This document shows, in pieces, positions 33,350-60,867 of a DNA stretch of 64,000 nt (the first letter of the stretch is position 1; each line of letters opens with the position of its first letter). The DNA comes from a virus. Made by a program: the position numbers and the translations under genes. The stretch covers positions 1 through 64,000 of IMG/VR virus record IMGVR_UViG_3300021963_000034; one strand, 5' to 3'. Under the pieces are notes generated by a model, which worked only from the letters and a program-made list of their open reading frames with translations, had not been told where the DNA came from and ran no database searches.

Positions 33350-33790
33350 ATGAAAACCTGTAAAATTTGCAACGAATTAAAACCACTTACAGAATTTTAC
33401 CAGACAGTAAGGAATGGAACTCCTTATGGACATCATGGTAAATGTAAAAAATGTTATGTAAAAAAGCAACAAGAAAACTATGACCCTATAAAAAAGAGAG
33501 ATGAAAACTTGAAAAGGGTTTATGGTATTGGTATTGAAGAGTATAATAATCTTCTAGAAAAACAAGGACATAAATGTGCTGTCTGTGGTTCTACTGACCC
33601 GAAAGGTAGAAAATCTGGTAGAGGTGGTGGTGTAGATGTTTTCTATGTTGACCATAACCATAAAACTGGTAAGGTAAGAGGTCTACTCTGTAATGTCTGC
33701 AATAGAACTATTGGATATGTAAATGAGGATGTTGATTTGATTAGGAATATGATAGAATATGTTAAAAAGCATAAAACCAATGTCTCATAA
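33350..33790 (+). CDS. Endonuclease VII-family HNH homing endonuclease
   Basis: 146 aa. An N-terminal CxxC...CxxC zinc unit (KTCKICNELKPL, GKCKKCYVKK), a middle CAVCG, and the catalytic ββα-metal core FYVDHNHKTGKVRGLLCNVCN (DHxH...N). This is the recombination endonuclease VII domain common in phage mobile genes. It stands directly behind psbA and has its own promoter. It probably cuts psbA or nearby sequence in competing phages and so spreads with the flanking DNA. Confidence 0.85.
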   Translation: MKTCKICNELKPLTEFYQTVRNGTPYGHHGKCKKCYVKKQQENYDPIKKRDENLKRVYGIGIEEYNNLLEKQGHKCAVCGSTDPKGRKSGRGGGVDVFYVDHNHKTGKVRGLLCNVCNRTIGYVNEDVDLIRNMIEYVKKHKTNVS

Positions 33791-33902
33791 TAATCAACAT
33801 CATCCTATGGAACCCTGGATTATCTGGGCAGGTGTAGGTATGATGGGATTCACAATCATTGTGTTTGTCGTATTCACTCTTTCGGTAATTTATTGGGGAT
33901 GA
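33780..33902 (+). CDS. Small membrane peptide
   Basis: 40 aa from ATG 33780 (overlapping the endonuclease end) or 31 aa from ATG 33807. A His-rich start, then one helix (WIIWAGVGMMGFTIIVFVVF). The size recalls small photosystem subunits, but I cannot assign it. Confidence 0.45.
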   Translation: MSHNNQHHPMEPWIIWAGVGMMGFTIIVFVVFTLSVIYWG

Positions 33903-33915
33903 GCACAAACACTCA

Positions 33916-33949
33916 TTGACTTCTTTGTTAAGCAATGTTAAGATAAATA
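33916..33949 (+). promoter_or_regulatory. Promoter of the psbD relic
   Basis: TTGACT (33916-33921), 17-nt spacer, TAAGAT (33939-33944), continuing as TAAGATAAATA with a late motif fused to the -10, like psbA and psbD. Still intact upstream of the relic. Confidence 0.65.
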
Positions 33950-33970
33950 TGAGAAACGATATAGGAGGCT

Positions 33971-34042
33971 ATGACTTCTTCAACTCTTTCACCGCCCATT
34001 TCTCAGAGAGGTTGGTTCGATGTCCTGGATGACTGGAAATAA
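33971..34042 (+). pseudogene. psbD: Remnant of a second psbD (first 23 codons)
   Basis: ATG 33971 to TAA 34040-34042 encodes a 23-residue peptide: MTSS start, then [12 protein letters not shown]. The intact PsbD begins [20 protein letters not shown] with DDWLKRDRF next. The leader AGGAGGCTATGACTTCTTC is also shared. Codon choices differ at many sites (TGG TTC GAT GTC CTG against TGG TTT GAT GTC CTT), so it is a diverged copy, not a fresh duplication. The rest of the gene is absent. It keeps its promoter and ribosome site, so the peptide may be made. Confidence 0.82.
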
Positions 34043-34075
34043 ACAAAACCTCTTAGCTTCCGTGAGGACTTCTGT

Positions 34076-34168
34076 ATGACCTTTTTGGGACTATATCTTA
34101 TCTTTCTTGGTGTGAGTGGATTGTTTAGAGATTTACAGAGATACAGAGAACAAACTGACGATAGGTAG
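34076..34168 (+). CDS. 30-aa single-helix peptide
   Basis: ATG 34076 to TAG 34166-34168. Hydrophobic MTFLGLYLIFLGVSGLF, then a charged tail (RDLQRYREQTDDR). It directly follows the psbD relic. Function unknown. Confidence 0.4.
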   Translation: MTFLGLYLIFLGVSGLFRDLQRYREQTDDR

Positions 34169-34189
34169 ACACTAAAAAAATCGGCACAG

Positions 34190-34224
34190 GGGCACTTGAA
34201 AACAGGTGCCCTTTCTGGTATGAT
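34190..34224 (+). promoter_or_regulatory. Composite hairpin-promoter
   Basis: Hairpin GGGCAC (34190-34195) / GTGCCC (34206-34211) with loop TTGAAAACAG. TTGAAA (34196-34201) in the loop, 17-nt spacer, TATGAT (34219-34224). The T-run after the stem is short (CTTTCT), so termination is weaker than at similar elements. Drives the gene at 34246. Confidence 0.65.
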
Positions 34225-34245
34225 ACTCTTATATACAAATGACTG

Positions 34246-34437
34246 ATGACCAACAACAAAGAAGTAGCACAAAAAGTTTATGAAGCATTCTGGAAAGATG
34301 AACCACATCCCTGTAATGTTGATGGATATGAGATTGCTAATGCTCTCCGTGAAGTAATCAACCAACTCCAACAATCTCCTGGTGTGATTTCTTGTCCCGA
34401 CCTCCTTGAACTTTGCGATGAGTTGGAAAATCTATGA
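34246..34437 (+). CDS. Conserved small protein
   Basis: 63 aa, soluble and acidic (VAQKVYEAFWKDEPHPCNVD, then ELCDELENL). Start 22 nt after TATGAT; overlaps the next start by 4 nt. Family unknown. Confidence 0.55.
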   Translation: MTNNKEVAQKVYEAFWKDEPHPCNVDGYEIANALREVINQLQQSPGVISCPDLLELCDELENL

Positions 34438-34610
34438 CTGAAATCAAATACCGACTTACTTGGAAATCAGACACTCAACGCACTCGTAAAGAAGCATACT
34501 TTCCTACACGCACGATGGCTGAAAAGTGGTATGATGAGAAACTAACAGAAGGTAAAAAACCACAACTCTGGATGGAAGAAACCACCACTATCCTTTATAA
34601 ACTGAAATGA
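34434..34610 (+). CDS. Conserved small basic protein
   Basis: 58 aa from ATG 34434 (ATGA overlap) to TGA 34608-34610. Pattern KYRLTWKSDTQRTRKEAYFP then LWMEETTTILYKLK. Probably an alpha/beta fold; function unknown. Confidence 0.5.
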   Translation: MTEIKYRLTWKSDTQRTRKEAYFPTRTMAEKWYDEKLTEGKKPQLWMEETTTILYKLK

Positions 34611-34669
34611 GTCGTTTTACTAAAAACCCAGACGAAGAATATATGGTATCTATTGATGAGAACTATTGA
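34607..34669 (+). CDS. Possible 20-aa peptide or gene stub
   Basis: ATG 34607 overlaps the upstream TGA; stop at 34667-34669. It is acidic (KNPDEEYMVSIDENY). It ends close to the homing endonuclease gene at 34742, so it may be the start of a gene cut off by that insertion. Low confidence. Confidence 0.25.
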   Translation: MSRFTKNPDEEYMVSIDENY

Positions 34670-34704
34670 AGAACTGGAAACTAAAAAGTAGAAATATTCA
34701 TTTG

Positions 34705-34712
34705 TATAAATA
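34705..34712 (+). promoter_or_regulatory. Candidate late promoter of the HNH gene
   Basis: TATAAATA 29 nt upstream of ATG 34742. Confidence 0.5.
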
Positions 34713-34741
34713 TTTATGTAGTCAATACAGTAGCAGTAAGA

Positions 34742-35323
34742 ATGAAGCATAAACATCATATTGTTCCAAGACATATGGGTGGAACTGACGACCCTTCTAA
34801 TCTTATTGAACTGACTGTGGAAGAACACGCAGAGGCACACAGAAAGTTATGGGAACAATATGGTAATATCAAAGATTACTGTGCTTGGAAAGGTTTAGAA
34901 GGAACTATTGGTAAAGAAGAGATTGTAAGATTGCTGATGGACCCAACTGGAAGAGTTCATACAGAAGAGACCAAACAGAAAATGAGTGAGGCACATAAAG
35001 GTAAGTCAAAACATACAAAGGAAAGTAAAGAAAAGATAAGTGAAGCAAGAAAAGGAAAGCCTTTGAGTGAAGAGCACAGGGCAAAAATATCAAAAAGTTT
35101 AGAAGGAAATACCCGTATGGTGGGTAAAAAATTGAGTGATGAGACAAAGAAAAAAATAAGTGAGGCAGGTAAAGGTAATAAGAGAGCATCTGGTCCTCAT
35201 AATGTTAGTGAAGAAGCAAAAAGAAATAGGATTGAAGCAACAAAAGAAAGGTGGAGGAAATACAGGGAGGCAAAAGGACTTGACCCAAATAAACCTATTG
35301 ATAGTAGATACTCCAAGATATAG
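34742..35323 (+). CDS. HNH homing endonuclease with NUMOD3 repeats
   Basis: 193 aa. An HNH core at the N-terminus: HHIVPRHMGGTDDPSNLIEL then TVEEHAEAHR. Three or four NUMOD3 DNA-binding repeats follow (HTEETKQKMSEAHKGKS, LSEEHRAKISKSLEGN, LSDETKKKISEAGKGN), and a basic C-terminus. Typical of free-standing phage homing endonucleases. It lies 100 nt upstream of psbD and likely targets psbD or the interval around it. Confidence 0.9.
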   Translation: MKHKHHIVPRHMGGTDDPSNLIELTVEEHAEAHRKLWEQYGNIKDYCAWKGLEGTIGKEEIVRLLMDPTGRVHTEETKQKMSEAHKGKSKHTKESKEKISEARKGKPLSEEHRAKISKSLEGNTRMVGKKLSDETKKKISEAGKGNKRASGPHNVSEEAKRNRIEATKERWRKYREAKGLDPNKPIDSRYSKI

Positions 35324-35351
35324 TGCCCGCAAGGGCACCTGCCGAAGGCAG
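35323..35351 (+). terminator. Two tandem hairpins after the HNH gene
   Basis: GTGCCC-GCAA-GGGCAC (35323-35338) and CTGCC-GAA-GGCAG (35339-35351) abut each other at the stop codon. There is no T-run after them, so they may stabilise the 3' end or weaken readthrough rather than terminate. Confidence 0.5.
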
Positions 35352-35355
35352 TAAG

Positions 35356-35400
35356 TATAAATACACTTCCCTCCTTACTTGATTTGCCCTATAATAAATA
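35356..35400 (+). promoter_or_regulatory. psbD promoter region
   Basis: A late motif TATAAATA at 35356-35363 and a -10 fused to a late motif, TATAATAAATA, at 35390-35400. No good -35 lies 17 nt upstream of TATAAT (TTCCCT), so late-type recognition may matter more here. AAGGAGG precedes ATG 35424. Confidence 0.6.
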
Positions 35401-35423
35401 TGTAAAGTAATGTAAAGGAGGCT

Positions 35424-36488
35424 ATGACTTCTTCTGTTTTACAGACACCCTCCCAATCGCAGCGTGGATGGTTTGATGTCCTTGACGATTGGTTGAAAAG
35501 GGATAGATTTGTGTTCGTAGGTTGGTCTGGCCTGCTTTTATTTCCAACAGCATACCTCGCACTTGGGGGGTGGTTGACTGGAACTACATTTGTTTCAGCG
35601 TGGTATACACACGGTTTAGCATCAAGTTATTTGGAAGGTTGTAATTTTTTGACCGCAGCGGTAAGTAGCCCCGCAGACGCTCTTGGACATTCCTTACTTC
35701 TTCTATGGGGTCCAGAAGCTCAGGGAGATTTCGTCCGCTGGGTCCAACTTGGGGGACTATGGACTTTTGTGGCGCTCCACGGGGCTTTCAGCCTGATTGG
35801 ATTTATGCTCCGCCAGTTTGAGATTGCCCGTCTTGTAGGCATCCGCCCTTACAACGCAATCGCGTTCTCTGGTCCCATTGCGGTGTTCGTCAGCGTTTTC
35901 CTGATGTACCCTCTGGGTCAATCCAGTTGGTTCTTCGCACCATCCTTTGGTGTCGCAGCAATCTTCAGATTCCTTCTGTTCTTACAAGGATTCCATAACT
36001 GGACCCTCAACCCTTTCCATATGATGGGAGTTGCTGGTATACTGGGAGGAGCACTTCTCTGTGCAATCCATGGAGCAACTGTAGAAAATACTCTATTTGA
36101 AGATGGTGATCAAGCAAATACATTCAAGGCATTTGAACCGACTCAAGAGGAAGAAACCTATTCAATGGTTACTGCGAACCGCTTCTGGTCGCAGATTTTT
36201 GGAATTGCTTTTTCCAATAAGCGTTGGTTACATTTTTTCATGCTTTTTGTTCCCGTTATGGGTCTCTGGACTAGTTCTATTGGGATTATTGGTCTCGCTC
36301 TCAATCTTCGTGCTTATGATTTTGTAAGTCAAGAAGTAAGAGCAGCAGAAGACCCAAGTTACGAAACTTTCTACACAAAAAATATCTTATTAAACGAAGG
36401 GCTTCGTGCTTGGTTAGCACCAGTTGATCAACCACACGAATCGTTTGTTTTTCCTGAGGAGGTATTGCCTCGCGGAAACGCACTTTGA
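35424..36488 (+). CDS. psbD: Photosystem II D2 protein
   Basis: A 354-aa full-length D2. [16 protein letters not shown] start, [17 protein letters not shown] lumenal loop, quinone/iron region [19 protein letters not shown] and the C-terminus [12 protein letters not shown]2 pairs with D1 in the photosystem II reaction centre in the thylakoid. With psbA it keeps photosystem II repaired during infection. Flanked by homing endonucleases on both sides. Confidence 0.98.
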
Positions 36489-36492
36489 TTTT

Positions 36493-36518
36493 AAAGACCT
36501 CATTGTTGGGGTCTTTTT
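36493..36518 (+). terminator. psbD terminator
   Basis: AAAGACC / GGTCTTT stem around a TCATTGTTGG loop, then T-rich, 5 nt after the psbD stop. Confidence 0.8.
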
Positions 36519-36548
36519 TATTTACATAAGAACCAAAATATGATATTA

Positions 36549-36556
36549 TATAAATA
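36549..36556 (+). promoter_or_regulatory. Candidate late promoter of the third endonuclease
   Basis: TATAAATA 25 nt before ATG 36582, within an AT-rich stretch. Confidence 0.45.
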
Positions 36557-36581
36557 ATAATAGATATTCATATTCAGGATA

Positions 36582-37163
36582 ATGCCTTTAAATAATAAAT
36601 CAAAACCTTGTGGTGCTTTGGTTGGTGAAAAGTTTGGAAAACTTACCGTTTTAAAAGAAGAAGTTATTTTTAAAAGTGGAAAGAATAGAGTATACACAAC
36701 TTGTAAGTGCGAATGTGGTGGGCAAAAAACCTGTGAAAGATATGGTTTAGTGTCTGGAAGAACTACTAGTTGTGGGTGTGTATTAACAGAACGAACTATT
36801 GCTTTTAATAAAACCAAAAAGAAACCAAAAGGTAGCAAAAAAGCAGATGATAGAAGATATAAGATGTTTCATAATGCTCAACATAGAGCAAAAAGAAAAG
36901 GCATTCCATTCAGTATAACTATAGATGATATTATTATTCCAGAAACTTGTCCTTTACTTGGAATACCTCTTATATCTACTAATGATAAGAGTGATCCAAG
37001 AAATCCAAGTCTGGATCAAAAGGTTCCCGGTAAAGGATATACTCCAGATAATATTTGGGTTATATCTTCAAGAGCAAATGCTTTAAAGTGGGACGCATCC
37101 CTACAAGAACTAGAACTCCTAGTAGAAAACCTAAAATGTTTCTCATCCTCTTCTCATTCATAG
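36582..37163 (+). CDS. Putative homing endonuclease with N-terminal zinc ribbon
   Basis: 193 aa. The N-terminus GEKFGKLTVLKEEVIF followed by CKCECGGQKTC and GRTTSCGC is the zinc-binding domain found at the front of many phage homing endonucleases. The C-terminal half (CPLLGIPLIS, NPSLDQKVPGKGYTPDNIWV) matches a compact nuclease in the HNH superfamily. It lies just behind psbD with its own late-type promoter, and its 3' end overlaps a small phage gene, as expected for a mobile insertion. Confidence 0.75.
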   Translation: MPLNNKSKPCGALVGEKFGKLTVLKEEVIFKSGKNRVYTTCKCECGGQKTCERYGLVSGRTTSCGCVLTERTIAFNKTKKKPKGSKKADDRRYKMFHNAQHRAKRKGIPFSITIDDIIIPETCPLLGIPLISTNDKSDPRNPSLDQKVPGKGYTPDNIWVISSRANALKWDASLQELELLVENLKCFSSSSHS

Positions 37164-49942: not shown

Positions 49943-49991
49943 TATCTAATAAAAACAATAAATAATCACACTGAAACTTCTATAGGACATT

Positions 49992-50884: not shown

Positions 50885-53374
50885 ATGAACTCAGTATCCG
50901 AAAAAATAGATGAAAGAATTCTGAGGTTACTGGGACTTCAATATACGTTTGACCTTGATTATGATACCTACTTAACTCTCATTAGGGAGGCAATGGTTTC
51001 TGGCGCAGGCAAATTACCACAAGAGGAACTTGCTCTCCTTGCAAATGAAAGAAAGAGAGTAAGAGGAAAGAAGGGTAGATTTAAACCAAAGAAGCAAAAA
51101 ATAACTGCAGGAAAATTTGCAACTACTAAGTTTCTAAAACCAACTGTTCAACCAGTATCTACCCCACTCCTGTCTGGATCAGTTGAACCACAAACTCAGT
51201 TAGTTAATTTATCGCCACTCCAAGGTCCTATTGAATCTATAAAGAAAACATTATCATCTTTCTTTGATTTTAGAAAAGATGCTGGTGAACAGGAGAGAAG
51301 AGACTACGAATTTCAAAAAAGATCTAAAAGAGAGGAGGGTCTTGAGGGCATAAAGAAGGGGATGGGTGCAGTCTCCGATGCCGTACAGAAATTTATTTCT
51401 CCTTTTCAGGGTATTATTGATAGAATTTGGAGATTTATTTACTTTACTTTATTGGGTAGAGCATTTACTCAACTTGTAAATTGGTTTGGTGATTCTAAAA
51501 ATAAAAAGAAGGTTGAAGTTTTAAAGAGATTTTTGAAGGATTGGTGGCCCTCTCTTCTTGCAGCGGCAGGATTCTTTTTTACTCCATTTGGAAAATTTGT
51601 TAGAGGGATTTTATCAATTGTTGGTGGATTAACTGGTAGATTAATATCGTTAATACCAAGAATTTCTGGTGCAGTAAAGGGACTTAGTAGAGTTTTACTT
51701 AATCCTTGGGTTGCTGTTCCTGCAGCAGCAGTTGGATTAGCAGCCGCTGCAAATGAAGTTACTGGACAAAGAAAAGCAGCAGGAGTACAAGCAGAGAACA
51801 AAGCAAGAGCACAGACTGGAAAGGGTCTAGGTGTTCAGGGAACTGACACTATGACAGATAAAGTTCCTAGTGTTGGTAACATGGGTGCTACAACACCTTA
51901 TGGACTCTTACAACAAGCTGCCCGTGGCGGTTCTGTGATGGATGGGTATTATGGTATTGATCATAGTACTGGACAAAGGATATCTGGATTTGGTCCTGAC
52001 ACACAATTAATCGCTGCACAACCTGGTGAAGTTGTTATTAATAAGAAAACTGTAGATGCTGTTGGTGCAGATACATTTTTAAGTTTAAATCATTACTATG
52101 GCGGTAGTGGTGCAAATCAACCTAAGTTTGGTAGATTATTTAATACTGGTGGAATTGTTGGTGGATTATCCCGTGGTGTTACAAAATTAGCAACTCCAAT
52201 CGAGAGAGCTATTAACTTTGCATTTCCGGTGGGAGGAAGAAAACCAACAACTAAAGGGCTTCGTGGCGCTCCTCTTAAAAGAATTATGCATGGCACCTCA
52301 TTTGGAGCACCTGAGTCTATTCGTGCTACAGGATTTAGAGAACAAATGGGAATGCTGGGGAAAGGTGTTTACGGTAGCGTAAAAGGTTGGGTTTCTGATA
52401 CTTATAGAGGTGCTGGTAAATTTAAAGGAATTTTACCTGGACAAGGACCAAGATTGGATATGTTAGTTCCTCAAGGAGCAAGAACATTAAGAGGTGCTAC
52501 AGTTGTTTCTGCCAGACAAGCAAATAGAGGTCTAAGAATTGCTGAAGGTATTATGAGTGGGAGGTATACTGGTGCTAAGGCAAGGTCATTAATGCCACTA
52601 TTGACTAGACAGACACCATCTATGGGTCGTGTATTAACAACAAGTGCTGCCAGACTTGGTGGTAGATTTGTTGGCGCTCTAAATGCGCCGATAATTGGAG
52701 ACATGCTTGACCCTGCAGGTACTGCAATGTACGATCAACTTAGCGGTCCTTATGCATATTACAATGCACCTGGATATAGAGGACCAAAACCACTAAGAAG
52801 GCAAGGTGGTGGAGAGATATCTGGATCAATAACTCCTGAAGAGGGAATGCGTGGATACCAGATGGCTTTAAAGAAAAAAGAACTTCCTGACTGGATAATA
52901 ACTGAATTAGGGAGAGAGATATGGGATGCTAAGTATGGTCCTGCTGCTAGAGGTGGTGCTGCTTTGAAAAAATACTATGGTGGTGGATTAGTTAAAGAAA
53001 ATACTGGAATGAATATTCGTGGTGCAACTGCTGATAGACAAATGACTGCACTTCAACCTGGTGAATATGTTTTACCTGTTGACACAGTTTCTCGTCTTGG
53101 AACTTCTTTGATTGATAAACTTGTAGCATTTACTGACAGCAATTCAAACCCCGCAAAATTAGGTAAGAAAAATATCAATAGACCAAATATTACTCCACTA
53201 TCCAATGGTGGAGGGAGTGGAGTGATTACTCTTCCGCCAATTACACAATCAACCTCTGGAGGATCTGCAGGTTCTCGTGGTGCTGGATCAAGAGTTCCTC
53301 CATTTCCTGCGACTTCTCCAACTGCTATTGAAGTAAGATCTATGAATGCTAGTATCTATGGGATTGTAGGATAA
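50885..53374 (+). CDS. Large tail/hub protein, possible tape measure
   Basis: 829 aa, starts right after the gp51 stop. Charged helical N-terminal third (about 1-160, including a Lys/Arg-rich GKKGRFKPKKQK), two or three hydrophobic helices at about residues 176-290 (IWRFIYFTLLGRAFTQLVNW, WPSLLAAAGFFFTPF, WVAVPAAAVGLAAAANEV), then Gly/Arg-rich repeats with GGxV-type and QPGEVVINKKTVD / QPGEYVLPVDTV motifs shared with tail tape-measure proteins. Position after gp26-gp51 fits the length-determining hub protein (gp29 role). No domain is conclusive. Confidence 0.6.
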   Translation: MNSVSEKIDERILRLLGLQYTFDLDYDTYLTLIREAMVSGAGKLPQEELALLANERKRVRGKKGRFKPKKQKITAGKFATTKFLKPTVQPVSTPLLSGSVEPQTQLVNLSPLQGPIESIKKTLSSFFDFRKDAGEQERRDYEFQKRSKREEGLEGIKKGMGAVSDAVQKFISPFQGIIDRIWRFIYFTLLGRAFTQLVNWFGDSKNKKKVEVLKRFLKDWWPSLLAAAGFFFTPFGKFVRGILSIVGGLTGRLISLIPRISGAVKGLSRVLLNPWVAVPAAAVGLAAAANEVTGQRKAAGVQAENKARAQTGKGLGVQGTDTMTDKVPSVGNMGATTPYGLLQQAARGGSVMDGYYGIDHSTGQRISGFGPDTQLIAAQPGEVVINKKTVDAVGADTFLSLNHYYGGSGANQPKFGRLFNTGGIVGGLSRGVTKLATPIERAINFAFPVGGRKPTTKGLRGAPLKRIMHGTSFGAPESIRATGFREQMGMLGKGVYGSVKGWVSDTYRGAGKFKGILPGQGPRLDMLVPQGARTLRGATVVSARQANRGLRIAEGIMSGRYTGAKARSLMPLLTRQTPSMGRVLTTSAARLGGRFVGALNAPIIGDMLDPAGTAMYDQLSGPYAYYNAPGYRGPKPLRRQGGGEISGSITPEEGMRGYQMALKKKELPDWIITELGREIWDAKYGPAARGGAALKKYYGGGLVKENTGMNIRGATADRQMTALQPGEYVLPVDTVSRLGTSLIDKLVAFTDSNSNPAKLGKKNINRPNITPLSNGGGSGVITLPPITQSTSGGSAGSRGAGSRVPPFPATSPTAIEVRSMNASIYGIVG

Positions 53375-56300
53375 TGGCAATTAACACTCAAAAGTTTTTA
53401 CCATCAGCAAAAACTACTGCAATTGCTAAGATTGGTGGATCAAATGCATCATCAAGTATTGTAGGTAAAAAAAGTATAAGTGCCGGTAAATTAATGGCAC
53501 TATCTCAAAAACGCAATGATGAAAGTGTTGATATTGTAAAAAGATCTTTAATTGATGTTGATTCCCTTTTAAGATCTGTTTTAAGTGAAGACAGAAAAAC
53601 AGAAACTGTAAAAAATGTAAGAAAGCAACAAGAAGAAAGTCAAGAAAGAGAGACTAAATTAGAAACTCCTAAAGAATCTAAGAAGTTTAACTTGCCAAAA
53701 GTTTCTCTTCCCGGAATGAGTTTTCTTGATAGAATAAAAAGATTTTTATTTTTCACTGGACTTGGGTGGTTATTTACAAGATTTCAAGAACAACTACCAA
53801 AGTTAACTGCCATTGTTAAAATTATTACTCCAATTTATGGAGTTGTTGAAAATATATTCAAATTCATTTTAGAGTCTGTTGTTAATTTTATAGATCGAGG
53901 ATATCAAACTTATGACAAAATAAGATCTATAGTAAAGAGTGTTGGTGGAGAAAAGGCACAGCAAGACTTTGATAAACTTTCTAGTAAATTAAATGAATAC
54001 ATTAACTATGTTTTTATTGGAGGAATGGCACTCACTGGTGCTATTACAACCTTTACTAAAAATGCAAAAAATTATAAACCACCTAAACCACCAACTCCAA
54101 CTCCACCAAGAGGTCCATTACAGAGAGTAGTTAGACCTGCTCAAGCAGCAGCAATAAAGGCATCTAGAGCAGCTATAGGAAAGCAAGCAACACGTCAATT
54201 ATTGAAACTTGCAAAAGGTCCATTATCAAGACTTCCTATTCTTGGTGGGTTAATTGAATTTGGACTTTCTTGGGCTCTTGGAGATCCTGTAGGTAAAGCA
54301 GCATTTAGAGGAGTTGGAACTTTACTTCTTGGTGCTGTTGGTTCTTTAATTATGCCCGGGTTTGGAACGTTTATTGGTGGTTGGGCTGGCGCAGAACTTG
54401 CTGGAAAATTGTATGAGGTTCTTTTTGAGAATAAAAAACCAGGAGCAACTGTTCAAACTCAAAGACATGGTGGAAAGATTAAACGTTATGCCAAAGGTGG
54501 TCAAGTTCTTGGTTCTAAGGGTAGAACTTTAACAATTCAAAAATCTAAGAAACCATATGTTGCACCACAATCAACTCAACCTGGTAAGGATGTAGGTGGA
54601 AAGAAAAAGATAGAATACTTATATCCAAATCCATCTGGTGGAACATTTTTTAGCAAAAAATTAACTTTAGATGAGTGGTTAAGAACCGGTAGTGGTGGTA
54701 CTTATGAAGACTATTTAAAGGAATATGACAATAGAAAAACTAAACCCAATGCATACAAAGCATTGACTGGTGTTGCTGAAATTTTAAAGGATATTCCTTT
54801 TGGAATTGGTTCTTTGATGGGTGGAGCAGTTGATGTTGCATTGGGTCAAAAATTAGACAGAGGGACTTTGAAAGGTATAAGTTATGGTCTTGAAAATCTT
54901 TTTAGTTCTTTTAGGGCAATATCTGAAAAATCTACACAAGGACTTTATGGTGTTCAGAAAGAAATTTCTACAATGCAGACTGGCGGAGTTATTGGTAGAA
55001 CTTCTGGTATGGGTTCAGTTGAGGTTGACCCCTTAAAAATTATTGGCGTAAGTATAAAGCAAAAAGTTGATGAGGCACTTAGAGAGGTTCAGAAACAAAT
55101 CTCCTTAAAAAAAGAAGAGAAAAAAATCACTCCTGGCGGAGAAACAGGACCATCTGCTCCACCACAAAGAGGGCCTGGAGGTGGAGGTGGAGGTGGACCA
55201 TCTCCAACTGGAGAAAATGGAAGATTGTCAGAATCTGTTCTTAAATCTGTTGGTCAGGGAAGATGTCGTGGTGGATGTAGATTATGGACTCCTGCGGCTA
55301 ATGCCTATTTAAAAATGAAAGCAGATGCTGCAAAAGATAAAATTAATTTTCAATTGGAAAGTGCTTATAGAAGTTATGAACACCAGGCAGAACTTCGTAA
55401 AGATTATGAAGAGGGTAGAGGTCCATTAGCAGCTCTTCCAGGAAAATCGGATCACGGTTTAGGAAAAGCAATTGATTTATATCCAGAAGCGGCGCAAGAT
55501 TGGGTTAGAGCGAACGGAAGAAAATACGGTTGGTATTGGCCTCCAGAAACTGGAGAACCTTGGCACTTTGTTTATGTTGGTGGAGGAAGACTTGAACCAC
55601 AAAAACAACAAACACCAATACCAAAACAACAACCGCAAATACCAGATAATCAAAATTATGGAGTAAAAGATGGTGAGCAAAAAAGAGTCAAATATAATAA
55701 TCAAAACTATGTGATTGCCAGAGACAAAGGTAGGTGGAGAATTTATAAGGTAAATCCAACAACTGGATTACTCGAAGAAGTTGACAGAACAGATCAAAGA
55801 TTCTTAAAGGTGCTTGAAGAGTATAGAAAAACTCAGTCTCCAACTTCGCCCAAACCTTCAGGACAACAACCAAAAGCAAAGAAATCTGGACAAGCTTCTT
55901 GGTATGGTCCTGGATTTCAAGGAGGGAGAACAGCGAGTGGTGAAGTTTATGATATGAATAAATTTACTGCAGCAAGTCCTACTTTGCCATTTGGTACTAA
56001 AGTTACAGTTACTAATAAGGCAAATGGTAAGAGCGTTGTTGTTACAATTAATGATAGAGGTCCATTTGAACCAGATTTAGTTACTCCTCATAGAACAAGG
56101 GTTATCGATCTATCAAAAGCAGCGATGGATAAACTTGGTGGTCTTGGATCTGGTGTAATTAATGTTGATCTTAATTATCAAGGTGGTGGACTTATTCCAA
56201 AACAGTCTCCAAAGAATAGAACATCATCACTCTCAATGTATCCATCATATTCGGAAGGTGGTGTGCGAATTGCTATTCAACCTATGATTATTGAAAAAGT

Positions 56301-56400
56301 AGTTCCTGTTCCTACTCCTTCTGGTGGAAATAGATCAGTAACATTTCCTGTTTCTGCTGGGGTAAATAATAGTAACATGGAAAGTTTAAGTAGAGGATAA
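53374..56400 (+). CDS. Giant tail protein with M15 peptidase and RlpA-like domains
   Basis: 1008 aa. N-terminal helices and hydrophobic segments (about residues 120-345, e.g. RLPILGGLIEFGLSWALGDP). A Gly-rich linker at about 600. Then a VanY/DacB-type M15 DD-carboxypeptidase at about 625-735 with ESAYRSYEHQ, KSDHGLGKAIDLYPE and EPWHFVYV (zinc ligands H, D, H). Then an RlpA double-psi barrel at about 830-930 with GQASWYGPGFQGGRTASGEV, SPTLPFGTKVTVTN, TINDRGPF and RVIDLSKAAM. So one protein can cut peptide stems and, if RlpA-active, naked glycan strands. Probably opens the cell wall during injection. Shares the helical/hydrophobic start with the previous gene. Confidence 0.82.
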   Translation: MAINTQKFLPSAKTTAIAKIGGSNASSSIVGKKSISAGKLMALSQKRNDESVDIVKRSLIDVDSLLRSVLSEDRKTETVKNVRKQQEESQERETKLETPKESKKFNLPKVSLPGMSFLDRIKRFLFFTGLGWLFTRFQEQLPKLTAIVKIITPIYGVVENIFKFILESVVNFIDRGYQTYDKIRSIVKSVGGEKAQQDFDKLSSKLNEYINYVFIGGMALTGAITTFTKNAKNYKPPKPPTPTPPRGPLQRVVRPAQAAAIKASRAAIGKQATRQLLKLAKGPLSRLPILGGLIEFGLSWALGDPVGKAAFRGVGTLLLGAVGSLIMPGFGTFIGGWAGAELAGKLYEVLFENKKPGATVQTQRHGGKIKRYAKGGQVLGSKGRTLTIQKSKKPYVAPQSTQPGKDVGGKKKIEYLYPNPSGGTFFSKKLTLDEWLRTGSGGTYEDYLKEYDNRKTKPNAYKALTGVAEILKDIPFGIGSLMGGAVDVALGQKLDRGTLKGISYGLENLFSSFRAISEKSTQGLYGVQKEISTMQTGGVIGRTSGMGSVEVDPLKIIGVSIKQKVDEALREVQKQISLKKEEKKITPGGETGPSAPPQRGPGGGGGGGPSPTGENGRLSESVLKSVGQGRCRGGCRLWTPAANAYLKMKADAAKDKINFQLESAYRSYEHQAELRKDYEEGRGPLAALPGKSDHGLGKAIDLYPEAAQDWVRANGRKYGWYWPPETGEPWHFVYVGGGRLEPQKQQTPIPKQQPQIPDNQNYGVKDGEQKRVKYNNQNYVIARDKGRWRIYKVNPTTGLLEEVDRTDQRFLKVLEEYRKTQSPTSPKPSGQQPKAKKSGQASWYGPGFQGGRTASGEVYDMNKFTAASPTLPFGTKVTVTNKANGKSVVVTINDRGPFEPDLVTPHRTRVIDLSKAAMDKLGGLGSGVINVDLNYQGGGLIPKQSPKNRTSSLSMYPSYSEGGVRIAIQPMIIEKVVPVPTPSGGNRSVTFPVSAGVNNSNMESLSRG

Positions 56401-56401
56401 A

Positions 56402-57727
56402 ATGCCAGCAGCAAATTTTGCCGCTCAGGCGGGAGAAACTCAAATTAAAATGTTTGAATTTTATTCAAACTATGGTAAAACTGTTGATGTGTCGAGTGGT
56501 TGTATTGAATTAAATTATTATGAGAGCATTCTTGATAATACAATTAGAGCGACTGCAACTTTTGCTGATACTGGAAATAGAAGTTCTGGTGAAGGGTCTG
56601 CTTCTGTAGAAAAAGATGACTTAAATTTAACTGTTGGTGAAAAGGTAAATTTAAAAGTAATTGATGGAAATCGAACAAGCCTTGAATTTACTGGCAGCAA
56701 ACAACTAAGAATTAAAGAAACCCGTAATATTGATGAAAGCACTGATAAATTAACGTTTACTGTAGATCTATTTTCAAAAGAATCTATTGATAATGAAATG
56801 GAAGAATTTAGAGTAAAGAAAAGATATGATGGAAAAATTTCAGATACAGTAGATAAAATATTAAAACAGGTTTTGAAAACTTCCAAGAAAATAGAAATCG
56901 ATACAACTCTTAATTCTCTGAGTGTATTGCCTACGACAACTAAACCGTTTTATCAATGTACTTGGTTGGGCCCTAGATCAGTCCCTACCGTTCAAAATGC
57001 AAAAGGAAATCTTGCGGGATTTTTCTTTTATGAAACATATGATGGATTTAAATTTAAATCTATTGATAAACTTTTTGAACAAAAACCTAAGAAAAAACTT
57101 ATCTTTAATAATTTAATTGGAGAAGTTCCTAAGGAATATGATGCAAAAATATTAGACTATTCTTTCGATAGTACAATAGATTTAAAAAATGTTTTGCTTA
57201 CAGGATCTCAATTAAATTCTAAGATGAAAGCAGTCAATTCTTATGAGAGTGCCTATCGAGAAAGTTCATTTGATTCAAAGAAGCAATTTAACACATCTAA
57301 TAATGGTGGAAAAGAGCAACCATTAATTGCAAAAGATCTTGGAATTCAACAAAAAACATCTAGGATATCTTATAAATGGGATGATCCTGGTTTTCTTGTA
57401 GAAGGAAAGTCTCTAAAAGATCAACTTCCAAAATCAACGTATATTAATTACAGTAACGATGAAATCTTGAGACAATCTTACATGAGATATAATAATCTTT
57501 TTGTTATTAAACTTTCGGTTACTATTGCTGGAGATTTAAGTTTAAGAGCAGGTGATTTGGTTCATTGTGATTTTCCTGAGGTTTCATCTAAAAAGAATAC
57601 GATTGTCAGTCAGAAAAAAAGTGGTATATATATGATAGCAGATGTATGTCATCGCGTAACAAAAAACAGTTGTTATACAAGACTAAATTTGATAAGAGAA
57701 TCCATTGGCAGAAAACCATTTAAGTAA
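56402..57727 (+). CDS. 27: Baseplate central hub gp27-like
   Basis: 441 aa. N-terminal strands FYSNYGKTVDVSSGCIELNY YES-like, KLTFTVDLFSKESIDNEMEE, VDKILKQVLKTSKKIEID and C-terminal YNNLFVIKLSVTIAGDLSLR with AGDLVHCDFPEV. This tube-domain layout, with a following gp5-like gene, matches gp27. It would form the trimeric hub ring. Confidence 0.8.
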   Translation: MPAANFAAQAGETQIKMFEFYSNYGKTVDVSSGCIELNYYESILDNTIRATATFADTGNRSSGEGSASVEKDDLNLTVGEKVNLKVIDGNRTSLEFTGSKQLRIKETRNIDESTDKLTFTVDLFSKESIDNEMEEFRVKKRYDGKISDTVDKILKQVLKTSKKIEIDTTLNSLSVLPTTTKPFYQCTWLGPRSVPTVQNAKGNLAGFFFYETYDGFKFKSIDKLFEQKPKKKLIFNNLIGEVPKEYDAKILDYSFDSTIDLKNVLLTGSQLNSKMKAVNSYESAYRESSFDSKKQFNTSNNGGKEQPLIAKDLGIQQKTSRISYKWDDPGFLVEGKSLKDQLPKSTYINYSNDEILRQSYMRYNNLFVIKLSVTIAGDLSLRAGDLVHCDFPEVSSKKNTIVSQKKSGIYMIADVCHRVTKNSCYTRLNLIRESIGRKPFK

Positions 57728-57728
57728 C

Positions 57729-57944
57729 ATGGACAGAACACTTCAACAACACATTAATGATGATAAAGATGAGATTGATAATCCTAATATCAGTGGCCAA
57801 CGTCGCCGCCACTTGGAGGATGAACTCGATCACTTAGAAAAATATCAGGTAAATCATCCAGATACTGATCATGATCCAACCGGATTTGAAATGTATTGCG
57901 ATGAACATCCAGATGCTCTAGGATGTAGAGTATACGAAGATTAA
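57729..57944 (+). CDS. Small protein with a CP12-like C-terminus
   Basis: 71 aa from ATG 57729 (a TTG at 57705 would lie in gp27). A helical acidic first half (RRRHLEDELDHLEKYQ), then FEMYCDEHPDALGCRVYED. The end reproduces the C-terminal loop of CP12, C-x8-C-RVYED, whose disulfide binds GAPDH; Cys57 and Cys66 keep the spacing. The N-terminal Cys pair of CP12 is missing. Located between gp27 and gp5, so it may be a baseplate small protein by location and a Calvin-cycle inhibitor by motif. Unclear which. Confidence 0.6.
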   Translation: MDRTLQQHINDDKDEIDNPNISGQRRRHLEDELDHLEKYQVNHPDTDHDPTGFEMYCDEHPDALGCRVYED

Positions 57945-58636
57945 TGAATCCATACTCAGGAAACTTTGATTTAGCGACTGTATCTGCTTTACCTAGATGG
58001 TTTGGTAGAGTAGTCTCTAGTATTTCTTGGCAAGATAATATTGAAGCATCCCATTTTAATCCAAAAAATCAAAAAGGATGGGGTTATCGATATAGAGTAA
58101 GATATTTTGGGTTACATTCTAGTAATACTCAGGAAGTCCCTGATGATCAGTTACCGATGGCAAATGTTGTCATGCCAGTAACTGCTGGTTCTGGTCTTGG
58201 TGGATTTATTGATACTCCAACTATTTCTGCGGGGACAATTGTAACTGGTTTTTTCTTAGATGGAATGGGTGGCCAAGAACCTTATATTGATGGTATCTTA
58301 ATAAACTCAAATAATTCTGTTCCAAAATCTCAACCAAAAGATGAACTTGGTGGACTTCAACTTTTTAATGATACTTATAAAGGAACTAGTCCTCAAACGG
58401 GTGCTTTTGTTCCTGATTTTTTGCAGGCAATTAAACCAGTAAATAGACCTTCAAGTGCTAGTACTCAATATAAAGTAGCACAACAAAGTCCACTCACGAT
58501 TGATCAATTGAGAGCAAGAACTGCTGAAAGGGAAGCAGCAGGACCACAAGTTGGACAAAAAGTTACAGATGCCGAGACATTGAAACTCATAGAACAGGAG
58601 AGGGAGATTGGAAGAACCGGAAGATTTACTAGATAA
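57944..58636 (+). CDS. 5: gp5-like hub/spike protein without lysozyme domain
   Basis: 230 aa starting on the last base of the previous stop. OB-fold N-terminal part LPRWFGRVVSSISWQDNIEA, YRYRVRYFGLHSSNTQEVPD, LPMANVVMPVTAGSG and GTIVTGFFLDGMGGQEPYID, as in gp5. T4 gp5 carries a lysozyme domain and a beta-helix; both are absent. In this phage the wall-cutting function may be taken by the 53374 protein. Confidence 0.82.
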   Translation: MNPYSGNFDLATVSALPRWFGRVVSSISWQDNIEASHFNPKNQKGWGYRYRVRYFGLHSSNTQEVPDDQLPMANVVMPVTAGSGLGGFIDTPTISAGTIVTGFFLDGMGGQEPYIDGILINSNNSVPKSQPKDELGGLQLFNDTYKGTSPQTGAFVPDFLQAIKPVNRPSSASTQYKVAQQSPLTIDQLRARTAEREAAGPQVGQKVTDAETLKLIEQEREIGRTGRFTR

Positions 58637-58658
58637 TAATAAGGAGTAGTTGAAAAAA

Positions 58659-59723
58659 ATGACAGCGATCACCGCAGGTTCACCATCTACAAGCACCATA
58701 ATTCAATCTGCTGTAGATAAAGCAAGGACAGTTGACTTTACTGAAATTACTAAAGCGGCATGGTCTCAAGATTTTGACTTGAAAAGGGTTTTAGATATTC
58801 AGAGCCCTTGTAAGTCTGATAATAGTTCTATGAAAGGAATTCAAAGAGTTATTAAAAATCTTCAGAATGATCTTGAGAGAATTAAAAGATTTTCAAATGT
58901 CAATTCTGCTTTTGATGCATTAACTAAAGAAGATGTTGAACCTTGGAAATCTATTAAAAAACTTATAAATTTTTCCGCAGATGACATTGCAAGTTATGTA
59001 AAAAATATATTGGGCGGAGTTCGTGGTTGGGTGATGACCACTATACAAAATAAAGTTAAAGAAAAATTACCATTTCTTTTTCCTGGCGAAATGCCATCAT
59101 TCATTGATAAGTTGAATAAAGGATTGAATGGAATTTCTTGTGCCTTTGCCAAGATTGTGAGAGGTCTTGCAAAAACTGTGGGAAATTTGCTTCTTCAAAT
59201 GTTGGATAAATTTATTAACGGTCCAATGTGTTTGGTTGAAAATTTTATTAATAATTTACTTAAGAAAATTTTAGGACCTATAGAATCTGCAATAAAAACT
59301 GCCTTGGGAATAATCGACAAAGCACTTTCCGCTGTTCAAAATCTAGCAGGCAGTTTGTTCAACTTACTAGACTTTATTACAGGTATTCTCAACTTTTTTA
59401 AATGTGATGATGATAAAGCATGTCCATCAGTTCAGGAGATAACATTGTCTGGTGCTGGGCAAAATAATCCTCAAGGTGGAGATGCTGTTGGTCCAAATTC
59501 TTCTTCATCAAGTTCTTCTCCTTTAGATGGTGGAATTACTCCTACTGGACAGTTTACTTCTGGCGTTGCGCAAGGAGATTCGTCTTCTACCCAAGATGCT
59601 AGAACATCATCTCCTAGCGGATCTACTAATTCTAATATTGATAAAACCTTTGGGACAAGTCAAGAAGCAAAAGATTTACTTGCTGGTAAAAAAGTTGACG
59701 GACTTTCTTTTGAGTTGAATTAA
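58659..59723 (+). CDS. Structural protein of the hub region
   Basis: 354 aa from ATG 58659 (AAGGAG at 58641-58646; a TTG at 58650 is the alternative). Helical segments at about 25-260 include amphipathic repeats (KFINGPMCLVENFINNLLKK, SAIKTALGIIDKALSAVQNL), with a Ser/Gly-rich C-terminal third. No known domain. Probably a virion component by position. Confidence 0.55.
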   Translation: MTAITAGSPSTSTIIQSAVDKARTVDFTEITKAAWSQDFDLKRVLDIQSPCKSDNSSMKGIQRVIKNLQNDLERIKRFSNVNSAFDALTKEDVEPWKSIKKLINFSADDIASYVKNILGGVRGWVMTTIQNKVKEKLPFLFPGEMPSFIDKLNKGLNGISCAFAKIVRGLAKTVGNLLLQMLDKFINGPMCLVENFINNLLKKILGPIESAIKTALGIIDKALSAVQNLAGSLFNLLDFITGILNFFKCDDDKACPSVQEITLSGAGQNNPQGGDAVGPNSSSSSSSPLDGGITPTGQFTSGVAQGDSSSTQDARTSSPSGSTNSNIDKTFGTSQEAKDLLAGKKVDGLSFELN

Positions 59724-59724
59724 T

Positions 59725-60867
59725 ATGGCAGACCAATATAGAGATACCTGTGTAGACAGGCAAAATAAAACTAGAAAATCTTTTAAAGGAAACCCTCTTG
59801 ATCCAATTAGAATTTCTTTCTATGATAAAGATGGACAAAAGATTAATGATGTAACTAGAAGTGAAGCAAATTGTATTGCAAAAGAAAATCCACAGCAAAA
59901 ATTTTATTATCAAGATGGTGGTGGATATCAAAGAGAGTTACTTATTGGTCAAGTAAATGCTTTATCTATTTTAGATTCTTTACCAAAAGCACCTAATTGT
60001 CCATCAAATCCACAACCTTGTGGTCCACCAAGAGTTCAGTTTTTTGGTGGTATGGGATTGGGAGCAATGGCAAATACAATAATCAGTCCAAATTCTAAAT
60101 CAATTATTGGATTTGATATTGTAAATCCTGGATTCAATTATCTAAATCCTCCTTTTGCAAATCTTGTTGATGAATGTGGAAATGGATCTGGTGGAAATTT
60201 ATTAGTTCAGACTAGACCTTATAGTGGAGGAGATCCTACTAAGGGAGGTCTAGAAATAAAGAACATTGTTATTACTGCTCCTGGAGATGGTTATCTTCCT
60301 GCACCTGACGGGTCTCTAGGTGGAAATGGAAGAGTGTGGAAATATCCTGAGGAAGGATATGTTGAAAGGAGTGATGGAAGCATCTATATAGTTCCTTCCG
60401 GTGCTATACCTGAAAATTTACCAGTTGGAGATAAATTTTATCCACCGGAATTACCGAGAACACAACCCACAATAAATACTTTGCCGACAACATATCCAGT
60501 AGTAGCTCAACTTGATGAAATATTTGTGGCAGATCCTGGATTTGGGTATGAACCTGGCGATACTTTGCAGGTGCTTGCTTCTGATGGTACAACCGGAGGA
60601 GCTGAATTGAGACCTGTTATAAATGACAGAGGAGAAATAATTCAAGTTAAAGTTATAAAACCGGGAATAGGATTTGTTGATCTTCCTGAGATTATTATAG
60701 ATTCTTCTAGAGGTTATAATGCAAAATTAATACCTGTATTAAAAGTAATTCCGTTGAGTCAACTTCCTGATCCAGCAGTAATTCCGCGATCAACTGCAGT
60801 AATTTCTGTTGTTGATTGTGTTGGTAGAATACTACCAAGAGAGACCTTTGATGTAGTACCGAGATGA
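59725..60867 (+). CDS. Structural protein, beta-rich
   Basis: 380 aa. Gly/Pro-rich strands (GFDIVNPGFNYLNPPF, VADPGFGYEPGDTLQVLASD, VIKPGIGFVDLPEIIIDSS) form imperfect repeats of a VxxPGxGY unit spaced by about 100 residues. Nine Cys, unusual for a cytoplasmic phage protein. Likely baseplate or fibre component. Overlaps the next gene by 4 nt. Confidence 0.55.
   Translation: MADQYRDTCVDRQNKTRKSFKGNPLDPIRISFYDKDGQKINDVTRSEANCIAKENPQQKFYYQDGGGYQRELLIGQVNALSILDSLPKAPNCPSNPQPCGPPRVQFFGGMGLGAMANTIISPNSKSIIGFDIVNPGFNYLNPPFANLVDECGNGSGGNLLVQTRPYSGGDPTKGGLEIKNIVITAPGDGYLPAPDGSLGGNGRVWKYPEEGYVERSDGSIYIVPSGAIPENLPVGDKFYPPELPRTQPTINTLPTTYPVVAQLDEIFVADPGFGYEPGDTLQVLASDGTTGGAELRPVINDRGEIIQVKVIKPGIGFVDLPEIIIDSSRGYNAKLIPVLKVIPLSQLPDPAVIPRSTAVISVVDCVGRILPRETFDVVPR

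Follow-up and report, generated by a model that had tools for sequence, protein, structure and literature searches.

A predicted cyanophage CP12 encoded in the hub operon, between a tail-protein gene and gp5

Introduction

The CP12 gene is frequent in cyanophages. Of the 16 cyanophages in Sullivan et al. 2010, 15 have cp12, and its position varies and can be in the neighbourhood of gp5 (PMC3037559). During phage infection, cp12 expression goes up and carbon fixation goes down (PMC5082946; PMC10665884). Oxidised CP12 puts its C-terminal residues in the active site of GAPDH, and in Chlamydomonas the penultimate Glu meets a GAPDH arginine, which in the case of the related GapB tail is the NADP-binding arginine (PMC4436894). 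The timing of a phage cp12 has been measured in P-HM2, in which cp12 lies beside talC and the AMGs are expressed in the middle cluster (PMC5082946). A late-promoter sequence, NATAAATA, has been proposed for cyanomyoviruses (PMC2984593).

Here, we analysed a stretch of 64,000 nucleotides of viral DNA (referred to here as the window; positions 1 to 64,000 of IMG/VR record IMGVR_UViG_3300021963_000034). An earlier note on this DNA had pointed to a small protein of the baseplate operon that ends in C-x8-C-RVYED, with Cys57 and Cys66, and had offered two explanations: a virion protein with convergent sequence, or a Calvin-cycle inhibitor made from the late structural operon.

Results

The window ORF is a CP12 homologue

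The ORF begins with the ATG at 57729 on the plus strand, ends with the stop codon at 57942-57944, and encodes the 71-aa product MDRTLQQHINDDKDEIDNPNISGQRRRHLEDELDHLEKYQVNHPDTDHDPTGFEMYCDEHPDALGCRVYED (Table 1). The C-terminus is as the earlier note had described it, and the CP12 profile search proposed there as a check gave 44.5 bits with PF02672 (Pfam CP12) against a curated cut-off of 22.7, approximately twofold in bits. The match to phrog_627 spans residues 3-71 and places the protein within the cyanophage CP12 family (T4-GC337/phrog_627). The top PDB sequence matches (phmmer) are CP12 chains out of GAPDH complexes, namely 6gfo, 3zdf and 5nmu, with a weaker match to 3b1j. An AlphaFold2 model, for which the alignment rows were the window and viral contigs, has three helices and a mean pLDDT of 88, with low confidence in the last residues. 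Its top fold match is the CP12 of the cyanobacterial GAPDH-CP12 structure 6gfo; this match is weak (E 0.04, prob 0.89), and those that follow have E values of 1.9 or worse.

Table 1. Positions of cp12, its neighbours and the candidate promoter motif in the window
Feature	Coordinates	Strand	Basis
Late-promoter-like AATAAATA, 35 nt before the first hub-operon gene; candidate cp12 promoter by read-through	49957..49964	+	Motif scan, consensus NATAAATA, sequence match only
Upstream tail-protein gene (T4-GC15 position; gp27 in the earlier note)	56402..57727	+	phrog_350, E 5e-76
cp12, 71-aa predicted CP12 protein	57729..57944	+	PF02672, E 2.7e-11; phrog_627, E 6e-22; PDB CP12 chains
Predicted C-terminal GAPDH-binding loop, residues C57-D71 (C-x8-C-RVYED), codon 65 = GGA (Gly)	57897..57941	+	Invariant Cys pair
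Downstream gene, N-terminal part of gp5-like hub protein (gp5 hub/lysozyme family)	57944..58636	+	phrog_1922 positions 20-148, E 4e-28

At the residue level, the protein has the CxxxPxxxxC pair and, after it, a short acidic tail that contains Tyr (C57-DEHP-DALG-C66-RVYED). The 68 distinct phage sequences of our first collection have both cysteines and Y69 without exception, and the window protein keeps the penultimate Glu (E70). These are its only two cysteines: the N-terminal pair of canonical four-Cys CP12 is absent, as is the AWD_VEEL core, in place of which stands LEDELDHLEKY.

The host proteins share this reduced architecture. From a bacterial genome collection we kept 80 CP12 loci, corresponding to 69 distinct proteins, the main sources being Prochlorococcus, Synechococcus and Cyanobium. 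A length of 72 aa is nearly universal among them, all have two cysteines without AWD_VEEL, and they align colinearly with the phage protein from end to end; the CP12 of WH7803 scores 68.7 bits on PF02672. Since picocyanobacterial CP12s also lack the N-terminal cysteine pair, its absence from the window protein need not represent a loss in the phage. In a protein tree the phage CP12s form a clade separate from that of the hosts, built on few columns, too few to resolve the order between phage and host. The CP12 loci that came from bins titled Euryarchaeota and Flavobacteriia (L111 and L139) are probably misbinned cyanobacterial or phage contigs; a Prochlorococcus single-cell contig, L162, encodes a phage-type CP12 that groups with P-SSM4. 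Given the profile, PDB-sequence and host-homologue matches, we reject convergence on a CP12 motif and conclude, on sequence grounds, that the ORF encodes a genuine CP12.

The window protein shows one oddity. Residue 65, just before Cys66, is Gly in the window and Glu in the 67 other phage and 69 host sequences. One further locus shares the Gly65 base, but it matches the window without a difference over 10,213 bases and may be the same assembly, thus giving no independent support. G65 may reflect natural variation, a sequencing error or an affinity-lowering change; in place of an otherwise universal Glu, it could weaken GAPDH binding.

cp12 lies at its commonest location

In the window, cp12 starts 1 nt past the stop codon of the tail-protein gene, and its own stop codon overlaps the ATG of the gp5-like gene. 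The earlier note had placed the gene between gp27 and gp5. The flanking tail-protein and gp5-like genes are indeed there by phrog_350 and phrog_1922, but no profile confirms the name gp27 for the upstream protein, which PHROGs lists as a tail protein; in cyanophage isolates the gene annotated here is T4-GC15, and its product was detected as a virion protein of S-SM1 (PMC3037559). Three ORFs (230, 357 and 380 aa) at window positions 57944-60867 match successive parts of phrog_1922 (positions 20-148, 214-455 and 781-931), so that the gp5 hub/lysozyme protein appears to be split, and Pfam finds no lysozyme domain in the three. The 1008-aa protein at 53374-56400, before the tail-protein gene, has VanY (D-Ala-D-Ala carboxypeptidase) and DPBB_1 (lytic transglycosylase-type) domains, which suggests that cell-wall enzymes may sit there instead of in gp5.

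We found 373 phage records that encode a relative of the window CP12, many of which carry the annotation CP12 or carbon metabolic regulator. In 80 of 80 viral-contig loci, chosen as the closest relatives, cp12 has a homologue of the tail-protein gene upstream of it, and in 67 of the 80 a gp5-like match comes after it, some of the remainder being cut by a contig end. Among isolates, cp12 lies after the hub tail-protein gene in 16 of the 21 regions inspected (SynMITS9220M01, S-WAM1, P-SSM3, S-SZBM1, Syn19, S-SSM4, S-CAM4, P-SSM7, Syn9, P-SSM4, P-TIM40, S-SM2, S-RIM8, S-MS29, S-T4 and S-RSM4). In the other five it is found near talC (P-HM2 and S-TIM5), before baseplate wedge genes (P-TIM68) or in other places (S-SKS1 and S-SRM01). 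The site between the hub tail-protein gene and gp5 is thus the commonest cyanomyovirus location of cp12 among the isolates inspected. The earlier note had assumed that cp12 normally accompanies talC in cyanophages, which these isolates do not bear out, and proximity to gp5 had already been published; being the commonest location, already annotated and described, the hub operon is no longer a surprising place for cp12.

The same note had remarked that no cp12 lies near talC and gnd here, which holds: talC (1048-1701) and gnd (1905-2939) are real, approximately 55 kb from cp12, and a PF02672 search of the whole 153,555-base record returned no second CP12, the single match being the gene at 57729-57944. 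Elsewhere in the window, psbA and psbD (33350-37163) are flanked by nuclease genes (Endonuclease_7, and HNH with NUMOD3), and GGAGGCTATGACTTCTTC occurs before psbD (35424) and again near 33965, as if the psbD start had been duplicated or interrupted.

Late-type motifs upstream of cp12

We asked how hub-located cp12 might be transcribed. In 26 of the 84 loci scanned, the late-promoter consensus stands no more than 60 nt before cp12, against a background of approximately 0.006 per locus, and by far the strongest peak of this motif within 5 kb either side of cp12 is the one just upstream of the gene. The looser TAAATA core stands 27-34 nt before the cp12 start in all 35 loci with at least 20 nt between cp12 and the gene before it, and in none of the 61 short-gap loci; the 96 hub loci in this count are related and the motif needs a gap, so that these numbers represent two arrangements rather than 96 independent trials. 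The link between gap length and a late-type TAAATA motif upstream of cp12, as read from sequence, is modestly new here, together with the unique E65G.

The window cp12, with its gap of 1 nt, belongs to the short-gap class and has no late-type motif of its own. The nearest clean intergenic late-type motif upstream is the one at 49957, and genes in the run that starts after it are spaced by -4 to +13 nt. Other motif matches between 49957 and cp12 lie inside genes, for example a GTAAATA near 56362 that precedes the tail-protein gene by 40 nt. A sigma-70 promoter for the window cp12 is unsupported, since the number of promoter-like sites in the region 56300-58800, 9, is no higher than the 9.8 expected from shuffled sequence. 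Most likely, the window cp12 is transcribed by read-through within the hub operon.

Discussion

Hub-located cp12 would thus have either a late-type promoter motif of its own or read-through. We consider it very likely that the window carries a cyanophage cp12 at its commonest location, read through in the hub operon, with a product that probably acts like the C-terminal half of host CP12. Following the mechanism already published for CP12, a C57-C66 disulfide would form the C-terminal loop as in that half, and the RVYED tail would enter the NADP site of the host Calvin-cycle GAPDH and block it. The NADPH and carbon freed in this way would feed the pentose phosphate pathway, which the phage TalC and Gnd would serve, and hence nucleotides. 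The product has neither the N-terminal cysteine pair nor AWD_VEEL, both of which the CP12 of the likely hosts also lacks, and for this reason canonical PRK binding is probably absent. In Synechocystis, loss of GapDH inhibition matters more than loss of PRK association (PMC9623430), a result in keeping with a CP12 that has two cysteines and acts only on GAPDH.

The hub operon, the 1-nt spacing to both neighbours and the conserved gene position would also suit a virion or baseplate protein with a convergent CP12-like C-terminus, the first of the two explanations offered in the earlier note. However, homology to host CP12 runs along the whole chain, homologues also occur away from structural operons (in P-HM2 and S-TIM5 they neighbour talC), and a published table puts CP12 apart from the virion structural proteins (PMC3037559). 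Full-length picocyanobacterial homology and the HMM threshold speak against convergence, and we regard a virion protein as extremely improbable; we counted the conserved position, together with talC and gnd in the same genome, in favour of CP12. That the window copy is weakened or decaying through E65G in its GAPDH-binding loop would agree with the occurrence of G65 in 0 of 67 other phage and 0 of 69 host sequences, but the frame is intact and C57, C66, Y69, E70 and D71 are kept, which leaves decay improbable.

The second explanation, a Calvin-cycle inhibitor in the structural operon, stands for identity and position, while late production of the window CP12 is only suggested by operon anatomy and the late-type motifs of relatives. 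If a true CP12 is made late under structural-gene control, its suppression of CO2 fixation would not be confined to the period of genome replication but would extend to virion assembly. The tight hub operon headed by a late-type motif, the presence of such a motif 27-34 nt ahead of cp12 in 35 of the 96 hub loci, and the proposal of NATAAATA as the cyanophage late promoter (PMC2984593) all point this way, but CATAAATA is also found upstream of P-HM2 cp12 and the AMGs of that phage fall in the middle cluster (PMC5082946), so that a late-type motif does not fix timing. We therefore hold late production to be possible but doubtful. Somewhat more speculative still is its extension to most cyanomyoviruses, in which CP12 would be under late structural-gene control, CO2 fixation would be suppressed through virion assembly, and middle-time expression would be limited to a talC-adjacent minority. 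Counting against our main reading, an early effect on metabolism would be expected more of a cp12 next to talC than of one in a structural operon. The measured timing comes from a phage with cp12 beside talC, and most isolates inspected keep the gene in the hub operon, among them Syn9 and P-TIM40, for which RNA-seq time courses have been published; the remaining interest lies in the timing of hub-located cp12, namely whether the inhibitor appears early enough to serve nucleotide synthesis.

Compared with known systems, the window protein shares with canonical cyanobacterial and plant CP12 (PDB 6gfo) the predicted C-terminal GAPDH-binding hairpin, whereas canonical CP12 has in addition two elements that it uses for PRK, the N-terminal cysteine pair and AWD_VEEL (PMC9623430, PMC9406205). 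The window protein resembles picocyanobacterial host CP12 (e.g., Synechococcus WH7803), with approximately 72 aa, two C-terminal Cys only, no AWD_VEEL and the HDP..LE.YC motif, although identity to these is just 37-47%. Cyanomyovirus CP12 (T4-GC 337; phrog_627; e.g., Syn19, P-SSM4, S-SM2, S-RSM4 and Syn9 gp17) matches it in length class, C-x8-C tail and gene position, with 70% identity in SynMITS9220M01 and 39-54% in most isolates aligned. The window differs from Syn19, P-SSM4 or S-RIM8 in having cp12 without its own late-type motif, a lack that it shares with S-SM2 and S-T4, and from other cyanomyovirus CP12s in G65. It adds one more member to the published set of phage CP12s, an ordinary phage CP12 in an ordinary place.
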